Shown: one piece after another, positions 2 to 4,132 of the stretch | How positions within the stretch are numbered: the first letter of the stretch is position 1 | Layout: the number at the start of each line of letters is the position of its first letter | NCBI GenBank assembly: GCA_022562855.1 | Contig: JADFON010000177.1 | Coordinates: 1 to 5,149, forward strand | Direction of reading: 5' to 3' | Source of the DNA: Candidatus Zhuqueibacterota bacterium | GTDB taxonomy: Bacteria; SM23-31 | DNA: 5,149 nt | The notes under the pieces: model-generated | Databases searched by the model: none | The model's input: the letters and a program-made list of their open reading frames with translations, nothing else | What the model was told of the DNA's origin: nothing | Translations under genes and position numbers: made by a program

Positions 2-325
2 ACTGTCACGCCAATATCTGGTGTGTTTACAGAGGCAGTCAATGTATTGTTAATTTTAAAAGATCACGGTGCAGATGTGGATTTATCATCATCTTGGAAT
101 GTTATCGAATTAGAAGATGCAGTTCCACAATCAATTAAAGTCACATTGACTTCACCATTTGGTGAGTTCTCAACTAGAGGTGCAAAGATTCAGAAATTTG
201 ACAGAATATATCTGCAAGTAACTGACATTCGTGGAAATGTCTTCAAGGACGTGTTCCATGTCAGAAAGATAAAACGTCCACGCAAAGGCGGAAAAGGCAA
301 ACAGATGATCCTCAACGATTTTTGA
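2..325 (+). CDS. Hypothetical protein, 5' end beyond the window
   Basis: The frame is open from the window edge; a GTG at 23 could be read as a start, but the frame is open upstream of it (T-V-T-P-I-S-G before GTG), so the gene more likely begins outside the window. The visible 107 residues look like a real soluble protein: an amphipathic stretch near the N-terminal side (TEAVNVLLILKDHG), then alternating beta-like segments (SIKVTLTSPFGEF, DRIYLQVTDIRGNVFKDVFHVRKI), and a basic tail (KRPRKGGKGK) just before the stop. No membrane segment or signal peptide is visible. Codon choice is narrow: all four Ala are GCA, all four Pro are CCA, and all seven Ser are TCA or TCT, unlike the mixed GCC/GCG, CCG/CCC and TCC/AGC use in the large gene to the right. 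The last ~150 nt overlap the 3' end of the SecA-like gene on the other strand. I do not recognise the family. An archaeal or viral origin is possible from the codon style but unproven. The stop at 323-325 may itself be created by a junction, so the C-terminus may also be incomplete. Confidence 0.6.
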   Translation, partial: TVTPISGVFTEAVNVLLILKDHGADVDLSSSWNVIELEDAVPQSIKVTLTSPFGEFSTRGAKIQKFDRIYLQVTDIRGNVFKDVFHVRKIKRPRKGGKGKQMILNDF

Positions 326-3175
326 AAGCTGTTCTTTATGCCCAAAATCCAACATTAAAGCGGGCAACCTGCCATTCAAATAATCGAGACTCGTATTAAA
401 TACCGATTCGACCGAAAATTTGAACTGTTCGAATTCAGCCGGAGTCATAAATTTTTCTTTAAATAAATCGTTGATCAATTTTTTTGTTATTATCGAAATC
501 GATTCGTATATCCATGTTTCGCAGTCCATCGTCTCGCCGGTTACCGACTCTCTGAAATCAGAAATGCATTTTCTCTGACTTTCAACAATTGAGCCAAAAA
601 ACAAATTTTCCTCACGGGCATTTTCCGAATCTTTGTCGCTTTTGACCTGCGCTCCATAAACGGATAGAATTTGAATTAGATTCCTCACAAAAGGTATGCG
701 TAAAATTTTCCCGGACATATACTTTACGTTTCGCTTTCCCGGAATAACAACCGCAATTTCCCCTATCAGAGCGCCGGAGTCGGAGTTTTTCATTATTTCG
801 TCTTCAAGCGATGTATAGAATATCGACGACCCTGTCCTTCCCTGTCTGCCGGTTCTTCCCCTCAACTGTGTGTTTATCCTGCCGGAATGTCCGGGTTCGC
901 CTCCGATTACATGCAGTCCCGTGCCGAAGGTCAGACGCATCACACTGTCCAAATCCGCATTTTGAAAAGTATTCATATTTCGTTGACTGCGTCGTTTACC
1001 GTTCCCGCCCGCATACTTGTCCCTTTCTTTTCGGGACTTGTCATCCCTGAACTTCAGAGTAATTTTGAATAAATCTCTGAATTGTACTTTTCCGGTTCTT
1101 GTAAATTCTTCCCGTAGTCCCGATTCAGTTAGTGTTTCCATGAGAATATCAAACTCATATCTTGAATAGACCGAAATTTGAATTTCTTTGGTTTGGGGCA
1201 GTAATGATATTACATAGTTTGCAAAGTTTTGCGCAATTATGACGTCATTCTCACCGGGAACATTGATATCGACGCCCCTGCCTGCCATATTGGTCGAAAT
1301 CGTCACGGCATTCAGTTGTCCCGCCCCGGCTATAATCTCTGCTTCTTCACACTCGTTCTTTGCATTAAGGATTTTACAAGCGATGCCTGCCCCCTTCTTT
1401 TTGGGGCTTGGATTTTTCTCGCCGTTTCCGGAAAAACTTCCCGATGCAAGTGTTTTGTATAATTCCTCCGATTCTTTGACAGAGGAAGTACCGATCAAAA
1501 CGGGTCTTCCCATCGAATGATTAAACAGTATATCTGATATAAGCGCTTTTTTCTTTTCGCTCTTTCGTGCAAAAAGCATCGTTTGAAAGTGCTTAACTGC
1601 CGGCGCTTTGAATGTTGGAATATCAAACGATTTTATTGAATATATTTTTTCAAACTCCTTCCGGTTCGGAGATATGGTGCCCGACATCGCACAAATTCTC
1701 GAATAATTCGAAAGCAGAGCAGGTATCGTTGTAGATGTGACAACCACATCAGACTGCGTTTGTCTCACGTTTTCTTTGTATTCCACAGCCTGTGTGAGAC
1801 CCATTTGATACTTTTTCTGTGGGTCGGGTCTTCCGGTTGAAGCAGTAATCAGTTCAATTTTTTTGTTCTCTGAAAGAATATAATCCTTGTCCCTCAGCAA
1901 TAATGTTTGCGCATAAAGTGCGTTTTGAATAGAAGACAGTAAATTGAGCTGATGGTATTCTCTGTCCTGTAGTTTCTTTAACCTGTATTTTTTTTGATAC
2001 CGGTTTAGACCGCTTTTCAAAATAGAATCCGCCTGTTTGCTGTAATCGGGGATTAAAAATAACCCATCAACATCAGGATACGTATTTTCGATCAACGCCA
2101 TCCCTTTTTCCGTCAGGGCGCACTCTTTTTTATCCTCATTCACAACAAAAAGCAAATAACGTTCTACGTGGTCTTGAAATCCGTTTTCGGTTAGAAAGGT
2201 GTGTTCAAACTTATCCGCTTTGTTCCCGATAGCCGGATTCTTCGCATAAAACTCCTGAAGCCAGTCTCCGGCGAATCCACTGTATTTTACCTGGACTAAG
2301 AGATTAAGATAGTCACGACAGTCCTTATATTCATGATCTCCTTTTCCCAGTTGTACCTTTAAACCGTCAGAATATTTTTCTTGCTTTTCGATTAGATGCC
2401 TGACAATATTTCCGGCTGTTTGCACGTCTGTATCAAAACGCTGAACCGTAGAAGATAAAATTACCGGGGTCTGTAGTTCATCGAGCATGATGTGGTCGGC
2501 TTCGTCAACTATAACATAATTTCTGGCACGGCACATTGCCTCTGAATTCACGGACCTGACCGAATCACGCAGAAAATCAAATGCGAATTCTTTATCTGAC
2601 CCGAATACGACCTGTGCATCATAGGCAGATCCTTTGTCCCTGTCATCCGCAGTCAAAAAGGCAGACGTTATGCCGAGTTTTTCAAGAACAGGACCTATCC
2701 ATGAACGGTCTCTTTCCGCAAGGTAATTATTTGAGGTCATAACGTGGACTTTACCAAATAACGCATGGTAAGCGATCGGGAAAAGACTTATTAATGTTTT
2801 ACCTTCACCCGTTCTCACCCGGATAAAGCGGTTTTCACCGATCTCATCGCACAAGATAATTCCCGCCTTGATCTGAACGTTCCATGGGACAAGATTCCAT
2901 GTGTACTTTTTACCAAAAACCAGCCAGGAATCTCCAACAGACCTTTTGCAGGTTACAAATACACAGGCCGCCGCCTTGTTTACAAGCAGATGAGAATCTT
3001 CCGGATATCTCGATTCCAAACTGTGGAAAAAATTTCTCAGGGAAGTAAAATCCTTACATTCGGAGTCTATTTCGCGGGCAAAAACCAGTATTTTTTTGAC
3101 CCGTTCTTCCAGGTCTAAAACCATGTTTCTGTTTTTAAAAGCAAATTCTTCTATTTTTGATTCAATCAGCGACAT
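170..3175 (-). CDS. Divergent SecA-like ATPase, C-terminus probably replaced
   Basis: This is a 1001-codon frame of the SecA family, the ATPase that pushes preproteins through SecYEG at the inner membrane. SecA landmarks in order: NVQIKAGIIL (99-108, Q-motif region), Walker A TGEGKT (122-127), MTSNNYLAERD (146-156), FAFDFLRD (197-204), Walker B DEAD (224-227) followed by LDELQTPVIL, TGRPDPQKKYQMGLTQAVEYKE (447-468), MSGT (497-500), GRPVLIGTSSVKESEELY (556-573), TNMAGRG (628-634), GLHVIGGE (753-760), QLRGRTGRQG (770-779) and FYTSLEDEIM (786-795). Oddities: the usual DE(H/F)TGR is TASTGRP; the region between DEAD and RDKDYIL, which holds the preprotein cross-linking domain, is ~190 residues rather than ~150; ~118 residues separate TNMAGRG from GLHVIGG; two hairpin repeats are embedded. 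After the QRK segment (867-869) the expected two-helix finger (LWKEH...RGYAQ-type sequence) and zinc-binding tail are absent, and residues after ~950 are antisense to the gene at 2-325. The true 3' end is therefore probably missing. The ATG at 3175 has no good Shine-Dalgarno. Family assignment is secure; whether it exports proteins is not. Confidence 0.88.
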   Translation of the reverse strand: MSLIESKIEEFAFKNRNMVLDLEERVKKILVFAREIDSECKDFTSLRNFFHSLESRYPEDSHLLVNKAAACVFVTCKRSVGDSWLVFGKKYTWNLVPWNVQIKAGIILCDEIGENRFIRVRTGEGKTLISLFPIAYHALFGKVHVMTSNNYLAERDRSWIGPVLEKLGITSAFLTADDRDKGSAYDAQVVFGSDKEFAFDFLRDSVRSVNSEAMCRARNYVIVDEADHIMLDELQTPVILSSTVQRFDTDVQTAGNIVRHLIEKQEKYSDGLKVQLGKGDHEYKDCRDYLNLLVQVKYSGFAGDWLQEFYAKNPAIGNKADKFEHTFLTENGFQDHVERYLLFVVNEDKKECALTEKGMALIENTYPDVDGLFLIPDYSKQADSILKSGLNRYQKKYRLKKLQDREYHQLNLLSSIQNALYAQTLLLRDKDYILSENKKIELITASTGRPDPQKKYQMGLTQAVEYKENVRQTQSDVVVTSTTIPALLSNYSRICAMSGTISPNRKEFEKIYSIKSFDIPTFKAPAVKHFQTMLFARKSEKKKALISDILFNHSMGRPVLIGTSSVKESEELYKTLASGSFSGNGEKNPSPKKKGAGIACKILNAKNECEEAEIIAGAGQLNAVTISTNMAGRGVDINVPGENDVIIAQNFANYVISLLPQTKEIQISVYSRYEFDILMETLTESGLREEFTRTGKVQFRDLFKITLKFRDDKSRKERDKYAGGNGKRRSQRNMNTFQNADLDSVMRLTFGTGLHVIGGEPGHSGRINTQLRGRTGRQGRTGSSIFYTSLEDEIMKNSDSGALIGEIAVVIPGKRNVKYMSGKILRIPFVRNLIQILSVYGAQVKSDKDSENAREENLFFGSIVESQRKCISDFRESVTGETMDCETWIYESISIITKKLINDLFKEKFMTPAEFEQFKFSVESVFNTSLDYLNGRLPALMLDFGHKEQLSKIVEDHLFAFSAFAWTFYLSDMEHVLEDISTNVSYLQIYSVKFLNLCTSS
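300..330. other. Suspected sequence junction (chimera or recombination)
   Basis: Left of here the plus strand carries a convincing protein. Right of here the minus strand carries a convincing SecA-like protein. The two frames overlap antisense by 156 nt (170-325). SecA similarity fades before this point and the conserved two-helix finger is missing, while codon choice changes from GCA/CCA/TCA-only to mixed. The simplest reading is that two unrelated sequences meet here, either by assembly error at a contig end or by a real recombination event. G+C does not discriminate (115 of the first 300 bases are G or C, not far from the adjacent stretch), so the exact point cannot be fixed from sequence alone. 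Confidence 0.5.
1016..1039 (-). repeat. Intragenic hairpin repeat, copy 1
   Basis: On the minus strand this reads as AAG-TCCC, loop GAAAAGAAA, then GGGA-CAAG: stem GTCCC/GGGAC (1019-1023 with 1033-1037) and a 9-nt loop. It matches copy 3 at 20 of 24 positions and copy 2 at 19 of 24, without gaps. Two of the differences from the other copies are paired (C:G becomes T:A in the stem), so base pairing is preserved. It encodes KSRKERDK (residues 713-720) of the SecA-like protein, inside the long insertion between TNMAGRG and GLHVIGG. An arm CATCCCTGA follows at 1042-1050 on the plus strand, four nt beyond the stem, and recurs at copy 3. Confidence 0.62.
1386..1409 (-). repeat. Intragenic hairpin repeat, copy 2
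   Basis: On the minus strand this reads as AAG-CCCC, loop AAAAAGAAG, then GGGG-CAGG: stem GCCCC/GGGGC (1389-1393 with 1403-1407) and a 9-nt loop. It matches copy 3 at 21 of 24 positions. It encodes part of PSPKKKGAG (residues 589-597) of the SecA-like protein, between LYKTL and CKILNAK. Canonical SecA has only about seven to nine residues there, so this site carries roughly 15 extra residues. The codon phase differs from copy 1: the repeat begins on a third codon position here and on a first position there. Confidence 0.62.
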
Positions 3176-3229
3176 TGTGTATACGGGTTTATCCGTTATT
3201 TCCGGCAGTTTTATAACAAGAACGCTTTG

Positions 3230-4132
3230 TCAATCAACCGTTAATTTTTCCGCAAGCACAAGCCAGTCATATATATCGTTATTGCTTGCGCCAAGCCCGA
3301 AATGTTTGATTACCGGTTCGGGATAGTAGAATCTTTCCAAAGAAATAATTCGAAAACCATGATTTGACAAAATATCTTCCAACTCAAATTGAGAGTAGAG
3401 TTTGATCCGAAGGTCACCGTTTTTCATATCTATGGACCCGCCCACCGGGTCAAACCTTCTCTTTTCTAATTCGTCGTAAACATGTTTTAACGCGGTATTC
3501 TCATCATGCCCGCCGTTCGTAAAGTTCTCTTTTATTCTGTATGCCTGTTCTAAATGGTTTTCATTGCTGGGAAAAAGACCAAGCAGAAAACCTCCGCCGC
3601 AGAGAGTCCGGTGTATTTCAGAAAACATCATAAACCTGTCAATTCTTTCAACAGCCAAAATCGAATTGACCGCAACTATCTCTTCGAAAAAATTGCTGCG
3701 GAATGGAAGTTGCGCACTGTCAGCCGTTACCGTAAAAACGGGGGATTTACTTTTGTTATTGCGTAAGCCCCGAAAAGATAGGGGCAGGCCATCCCTGACG
3801 GGACAAATGAGCTTCGCTTTTGCGATCATTGCAGACGAAAAATCGATCCCGACCACTCTCTTTATACGGTTGGGCAGACCATTTTGATTCAATGAAAGAT
3901 AGTTCAGGAAATAGCCGTTGCCGCAACCGTTATCAAGTACCCAGGCGGTTTTCGAGTTGCTTGCCCGGTTTACTCGATCCTTTTGATTTTTCTTTTTGAT
4001 CGATTCAACGGCAGAATAAAAAATCCGCTCAGTCTCCGGATCATGAAATGGGGAAATAATTTCATTTCTGTAGTTATCCGAAACATCTCCCCAATAATTT
4101 ATCTGTGGATTCTTTCCGTTCAGGTTTTCCAC
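3230..4132 (-). CDS. Class I SAM-dependent methyltransferase
   Basis: This 300-residue protein has the Rossmann-type fold signature of S-adenosylmethionine methyltransferases. Motif I is VLDNGCGNG (65-73), the SAM-binding glycine loop. VVGIDFSSAMIAKAK (93-107) carries the acidic residue (D97) expected to bind the ribose hydroxyls. ADSAQLPF (137-144) is the motif II/III region, followed by FEEIVAVNSILAVE (149-162), and GGGFLLGLFPSNEN (179-192) fits the later strand 5 region. The C-terminal DWLVLAEK is a common ending in this fold. The spacing from D97 to D138 is about 15 residues longer than usual and contains hairpin repeat copy 3. The N-terminal INYWGDVSDNY fits the YW-type entry helix of the Methyltransf_11/25 group. 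Length is slightly above the usual 220-280. The start is GTG at 4132; an in-frame TAA 18 nt upstream leaves no earlier start, and the nearest purine run (GGTGAA) is too close to be a standard Shine-Dalgarno. The substrate (small molecule, lipid, protein or RNA) cannot be told. It ends 54 nt before the SecA-like gene on the same strand, so one transcript is likely. Confidence 0.88.
   Translation of the reverse strand: MENLNGKNPQINYWGDVSDNYRNEIISPFHDPETERIFYSAVESIKKKNQKDRVNRASNSKTAWVLDNGCGNGYFLNYLSLNQNGLPNRIKRVVGIDFSSAMIAKAKLICPVRDGLPLSFRGLRNNKSKSPVFTVTADSAQLPFRSNFFEEIVAVNSILAVERIDRFMMFSEIHRTLCGGGFLLGLFPSNENHLEQAYRIKENFTNGGHDENTALKHVYDELEKRRFDPVGGSIDMKNGDLRIKLYSQFELEDILSNHGFRIISLERFYYPEPVIKHFGLGASNNDIYDWLVLAEKLTVD
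3765..3804 (+). repeat. Intragenic hairpin repeat, copy 3, with second small hairpin
   Basis: The core at 3765-3788 reads on the plus strand as AAG-CCCC, loop GAAAAGATA, then GGGG-CAGG: stem GCCCC/GGGGC (3767-3771 with 3781-3785). Four nt beyond the stem lies CATCCCTGA (3790-3798), also found at the same spacing beside copy 1. It extends here into a second small inverted repeat, TCCC-TGAC-GGGA (3792-3803). The core is antisense to the methyltransferase and encodes GLPLSFRGL (residues 115-123), in an apparent insertion between the SAM-binding strand after motif I and the motif II acidic region. Copies 1 and 2 have the core on the sense strand of their gene, so this copy is flipped relative to its host gene. 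Confidence 0.65.

Follow-up and report, generated by a model that had tools for sequence, protein, structure and literature searches.

The window analysed in this study, i.e. the whole stretch of 5,149 nucleotides, is contig C183 of a draft genome (2.51 Mb, 491 contigs, 79.6% complete) of a Candidatus Zhuqueibacterota bacterium. It contains two intact genes on the minus strand: a SecA-like gene (positions 170-3175), encoding a strongly divergent second SecA-like protein of 1001 aa, and an adjoining gene (3230-4132) for a class I SAM-dependent methyltransferase of 300 aa. The canonical SecA is encoded at G000:C218, and the SecA-like protein of the window shares approximately 31-35% identity with SecA over residues 22-640. 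A search in 60 relatives gave no close orthologue of this gene, and the matches obtained there (31-40% identity) are in keeping with canonical SecA. An open frame at positions 1-325 of the plus strand, which runs in from the contig edge and shares 156 bases in antisense with the end of the SecA-like gene, gave no family match and may be either a genuine convergent gene or the product of a chimeric contig end.

Three copies of a short hairpin lie within these two genes, at the positions and on the strands given by the original prediction. Copy 1 (AAGTCCCGAAAAGAAAGGGACAAG, 1016-1039, minus strand) and copy 2 (AAGCCCCAAAAAGAAGGGGGCAGG, 1386-1409, minus strand) belong to the SecA-like gene, where they are read in element frames +1 (KSRKERDK) and +2 (SPKKKGAG), respectively, and copy 3 (AAGCCCCGAAAAGATAGGGGCAGG, 3765-3788, plus strand) is antisense to the methyltransferase gene, in which it is translated as LPLSFRGL. 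Each copy has a 5-bp stem and a 9-nt loop and matches the degenerate consensus at all 24 positions, with pairwise identities of 19, 20 and 21 of 24. Copy 3 is followed by a second hairpin, CATCCCTGACGGGAC (3790-3804), and together they form a composite unit (3763-3804, plus strand), which is identical at 39 of 42 positions to a composite at G000:C474 (L010); the composite is present at C332 (L008), too.

A chance origin of three such matches had been doubted from the outset, and it is excluded by a weight matrix trained exclusively on 27 places outside the window, which avoids circularity; these places were loosely collected and include some noise. The three copies are the top three sites of the window (35.0 bits for copy 3, 33.7 for copy 2 and 24.3 for copy 1), all above the best site in 200 dinucleotide shuffles of the window (18.4 bits). 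The observation of three hairpins is confirmed. As single strands, they fold only mildly better than shuffled sequences (z-scores of -2.8, -1.8 and -1.5). Covariation in the stem is not demonstrable, as the three innermost base pairs hardly vary and the two outermost are formed in only approximately half of the copies, and an Rfam search with the hairpin gave no match.

The original prediction had inferred a small mobile or spreading hairpin element and proposed a genome-wide search with a covariance model. Such a model, here built from 22 copies, detected dozens of copies: 33-34 places at E<0.01 and 48 at E<0.1, the training copies among them. Pattern AAGNCCCNAAAAGANNGGGNC was found at 18 places with at most 2 mismatches (1 for the reversed control), and pattern CCCCN{3,16}GGGGCAGGC gave 29 strict matches, a few of which overlap each other (0 for the reversed control). 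These whole-genome counts come from pattern and model searches, while the copies read one by one number some 48 and cover part of the genome. The copy number is a minimum, as several copies lie at contig ends (e.g. C96, C306, C363 and C297). The unit CCCCGAAAAGATAGGGGCAGGC is present in five identical copies, which lie far apart and in differing surroundings.

Two further genomes from the same taxonomic family, which are of different genera, gave 4 and 3 covariance-model matches (weak to good), and three genomes of the same class gave none; the hairpin family is thus concentrated mainly in this lineage. The exact motif was absent from viral contigs and, among approximately 85,000 species genomes, was found in one contig, of a Cecembia MAG, a single hit being close to the rough chance expectation of ~0.2. 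In that contig (L230), the 22-mer and a variant differing by one base (1094-1115 and ~1279-1300) occupy a palindrome loop, the arms being AGTGAAGC/GCTTCACT and the end CAGGGTGACG; the palindrome of the hit ends with GGTGACG.

The unit is a hairpin of the form CCC(C) - A-rich loop - GGG(G)RCARGC, of approximately 21-27 nt, with a counted core of 16-24 nt (mostly 18-22 nt), and five of the six reading frames of the consensus are open. AAG often comes before it, and after it there is often CATCCCTGACGGGACAAGC or a further short hairpin, e.g. CACATAGTGGCAGGC. The modules follow one another head to tail in composites of 40-100 nt, and the tandem arrays (at C286, C143, C164 and C417) reach approximately five similar, non-identical modules. 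One copy, in L002 (G000:C270, 3799-3825, minus strand), ends directly at an ATG and replaces or overlaps the ribosome-binding region of a gene whose epimerase-like product begins with MKIVSVVGTRPNF.

Most copies are intergenic, and the loops of other palindromic repeats house many of them, as single units or in tandem. Outer stems of at least 7 bp flank 12 of 39 copies, whereas 200 permutations of the flanks, which already pair fairly often, gave 4.0 on average and 10 at most. Five outer palindromes are present in the same genome both empty and filled. The palindrome GATCCTGAAAC/AAGTTCAGGA is empty in four cases and filled once, at C275, with 21 nt (CCCAAAAAGAAGGGGCAGGCT), while GATTGCCAC/GTCGCTACGCTCC (right arm GTCGCT) is empty at C127 and holds 21 nt (CCCGAAAAGATAGGGGCAGGC) at C297, C422 and, with one change, C71. 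The palindrome CACCCCCAAAC..GTTTGGGGGTG has an empty 3-nt loop at C422 and C71 and is filled with 22 nt at C205; GACAGAC..GAATGTC is empty (2 nt) at C127 (L025) and C68 (L195) and contains 21 nt at C72 and C151; and TTCCGAAAC/AAGTTCGGAA is empty at C341:2869 and filled, at C83 and C198, with 21-22 nt. For another palindrome, TTCCGTGT..AAGCACGGAA, the sixth, only the filled form was seen (C143, C319, C470 and C67).

The insertion junction within the loop follows a C, in most cases as part of AC. Target duplications were looked for at the clean empty/filled pairs and none was found; we read these pairs as clean insertions into hairpin loops. Some filled sites share long flanks (AGATTGCCACCCCGAAAAGATAGGGGCAGGCGTCGCTACGCTCC in C422 and C71, and nearly so in C297), and because of these common flanks the filled GATTGCCAC sites may in part have been copied whole, as composites. 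In some cases the outer palindrome itself has the appearance of a CGTC/TGTC REP (TGTC-ATTCCGTG-loop-CACGGAAT).

The original prediction described the repeat as gene-embedded. This holds for the three copies of the window and for copies in four other genes, but it is not a property of the family, as approximately 7 of some 48 distinct copies read lie inside recognisable genes, with three of the element frames in use. Gene embedding is thus genuine but confined to a minority of copies. The four other genes encode a glycosyltransferase with GT4 and GT2 domains (C332, with the unit just before the PF00534 match), a CheA-type kinase carrying the unit in its linker (C134), a molybdopterin oxidoreductase carrying it near the N-terminus, whose true start is uncertain (C169), and a PBP-like protein, named from its sequence with no family search, in which it occupies a linker (C179).

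In the SecA-like protein, copy 2 is held by an insertion of 17 residues (approximately 1386-1447, minus strand, and residues 577-593) between the conserved SecA motifs GTxSVxxSE and VLNAK, and a MAFFT alignment with SecA of relatives has a 17-column gap at this point in every correctly read SecA. Copy 1 falls within residues 640-745, which are lineage-specific and have no counterpart in other SecA proteins. In the methyltransferase, 119 residues extend over 94 profile positions, with ~15-17 extra residues at copy 3, and the same stretch corresponds to gaps of 14-15 residues in the solved methyltransferases 3L8D and 1VE3 (weak matches). The check suggested along with the original prediction has revealed, for copies 2 and 3, homologues without these residues rather than the same residues conserved as protein sequence.

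Three genes for Y1 (RAYT-like) transposases were identified in the genome (C347, C119 and C53), two of them above the NCBIfam cut-off for REP-associated tyrosine transposases, and none of the three loci has the present hairpin at its ends. The RAYT gene at C347 instead has GTAG-type repeats of its own (GGGGTCGTCCCTGACCCC) around it. At this locus (L078, 1050-1935), GGGGTCAGGGACGACCCC palindromes lie on both sides of the gene, and the palindrome GGGGTCGTCYCTGACCCC occurs at 36 places in the genome versus 0 reversed, i.e. as a GTAG-type REP family with its RAYT. The RAYT-like gene at C53 (L079, 174-641, minus strand) contains within its own coding sequence an in-frame GTAGGGGCAGGTTC repeat, which has TAGGGGCAGG in common with the tail of the present hairpin.

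The idea that this tail might be a tag arose from its presence in different modules and in palindromes of unrelated genomes. In G229 a pattern with the same tail gave 123 matches versus 0 in the reversed control, and the unrelated bacteria G229, G175 and G283 have many same-tail palindromes, e.g. CCCCGTATCAAGTACGGGGCAGGC, sometimes in tandem with a period of 23. CARGC/GCYTG was rejected as a third REP tag, as the tail is not enriched after GC-stem hairpins in approximately 0.58 Mb of unmasked own sequence; as a recognition tag, the CARGC tail is a lead.

REPs are palindromes of 20-40 bp, which form GTAG- and CGTC-tagged superfamilies and in some species are located in genes (Di Nocera et al. 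2013, PMC3733652). The present units are likewise palindromes in many copies, single or grouped, mostly intergenic and in some cases in frame in genes. However, in GTAG REPs the GTAG (GTRG) is unpaired at the palindrome end, and the RAYT gene lies between inverted copies of the same repeat, RAYTs being flanked by GT(A/G)G repeats (PMC2817692), whereas GTAG/CTAC lies within 8 nt of 5 of 48 present hairpins, which flank none of the three transposase genes. CGTC REPs have a CGTC/TGTC tag, a stem of 8-9 bp starting with AT and a loop of 4-5 nt. Some outer palindromes fit this description, but the present hairpin has a C/G stem of 4-5 bp and a longer, A-rich loop, with CGTC/GACG within 8 nt in 5 of 48 copies. 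A few REP families located inside other palindromes are known, namely the A. variabilis GTAG-15 dimers, T. roseum GTAG-23 and H. neapolitanus CGTC-1 (PMC3733652). Unlike REPs, the present single units occupy the loops of several different outer palindromes, of which empty versions exist in the same genome.

The parallel drawn by the original prediction was with Rickettsia palindromic elements (RPEs), which are in-frame palindromic insertions of ~150 bp, divided into ten families (PMC10969869), and of which RPE-4 and RPE-6 are CGTC REPs (PMC3733652). It is apt for the in-frame insertion in several unrelated genes, but the present unit is smaller (21-27 nt, or 40-100 nt as a composite), mostly intergenic and devoid of the CGTC tag, and is therefore not an RPE, from which length and tag set it apart. 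The present units thus work like REPs and RPEs but fall outside both tag definitions. In BIMEs, REPs alternate in orientation (PMC2817692); the present arrays are similar in being a mosaic of palindromic units and other short modules, but they lack regularly spaced REPs of alternating orientation, and the modules are arranged head to tail and nested in loops. IS200/IS605-type mobile DNA has a hairpin at its end and a Y1 enzyme available, and inserts without target duplication; here, the clean empty/filled pairs lack a target duplication and Y1 genes are present, but without a link to the hairpin. The mobile hairpin elements of mitochondria (double-hairpin elements; sponge RHEs) (PMC2800124) are also small hairpins, which become double hairpins by tandem insertion and are tolerated in genes. 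They are organellar and have no known sequence in common with the present unit; the likeness is an analogy only.

Based on our observations, the hairpin is real, and mobile or recently spreading: the genome-wide family, the empty and filled sites and the location of copies in insertions relative to homologues all bear out the small spreading element that had been inferred. We suggest that the window hairpins probably belong to a REP-like family of small palindromes, dispersed over the genome and moving as single-stranded DNA, with a RAYT acting in trans as the likeliest agent. The units are clean additions, without target duplication, to the loops of other palindromic repeats, and they are also found inside genes, where copies whose total insertion keeps the frame survive in linkers or loops. 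The unit, which would have no coding function of its own and would add approximately 15-33 mostly neutral residues in genes, may enter exposed DNA, typically after a C in a hairpin loop, during replication or palindrome extrusion. This movement is inferred from the sites of a single genome, the two sister genomes being of different genera. Transposition in trans by a REP-associated tyrosine (Y1, HUH) transposase is the preferred but unproven agent, because no RAYT is flanked by the present hairpin, and its probability is hardly greater than that of template switching at stalled hairpins.

The latter, our main rival explanation, would require no transposase, as fork template switching or gap repair at hairpins would place in a hairpin loop the copy of a different hairpin, either a nearby or a repeated one. 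It seems a serious possibility, if short of an even one, as it would account for insertions in hairpin loops, the variable length and composition of the loop, arrays of up to approximately five non-identical modules, the absence of target duplication and the absence of a transposase flanked by the hairpin unit. However, the five identical copies of CCCCGAAAAGATAGGGGCAGGC at distant sites need a mobile or in-trans source, and the insertions in the window genes have no notable outer palindrome. It is unlikely that the units act at the RNA level, for example as terminators or mRNA-stabilising hairpins, and are maintained by selection rather than being mobile DNA: the many intergenic copies would form hairpins once transcribed, and the C270 copy lies directly upstream of a start codon, but the units occur in both orientations relative to genes as well as inside coding regions, and they show neither an Rfam match nor covariation, with folding mildly better than that of shuffles. 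Least probable by far is that the window copies are alike as conserved or convergent protein sequence (K/R/G-rich linkers) and not as inserted DNA. Two of them do encode K-rich stretches, but the three copies are in different frames, one of them antisense, the DNA family is mostly intergenic, and the alignments refute this reading for copies 2 and 3, at which homologues lack the residues.

Returning to transposition in trans, we tentatively propose a more specific and rather doubtful picture of an untagged mobile unit of ~21 nt that may prefer the single-stranded loops of palindromes, may be moved by a tyrosine transposase in trans, and may thereby give rise to nested and tandem arrays and, occasionally, to in-frame residues.

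In the open-access literature searched, we found no report of untagged single hairpins that had entered the loops of several REP-like palindromes time and again. For CGTC REPs, the question of how palindromes that have no transposase of their own may spread has been posed (PMC3733652). The paired empty and filled sites with exact loop junctions in one genome point to single-stranded loops as targets, and give a defined substrate for a biochemical test. At the same time, the present family shows a route by which non-coding hairpins add residues to conserved proteins outside Rickettsia.
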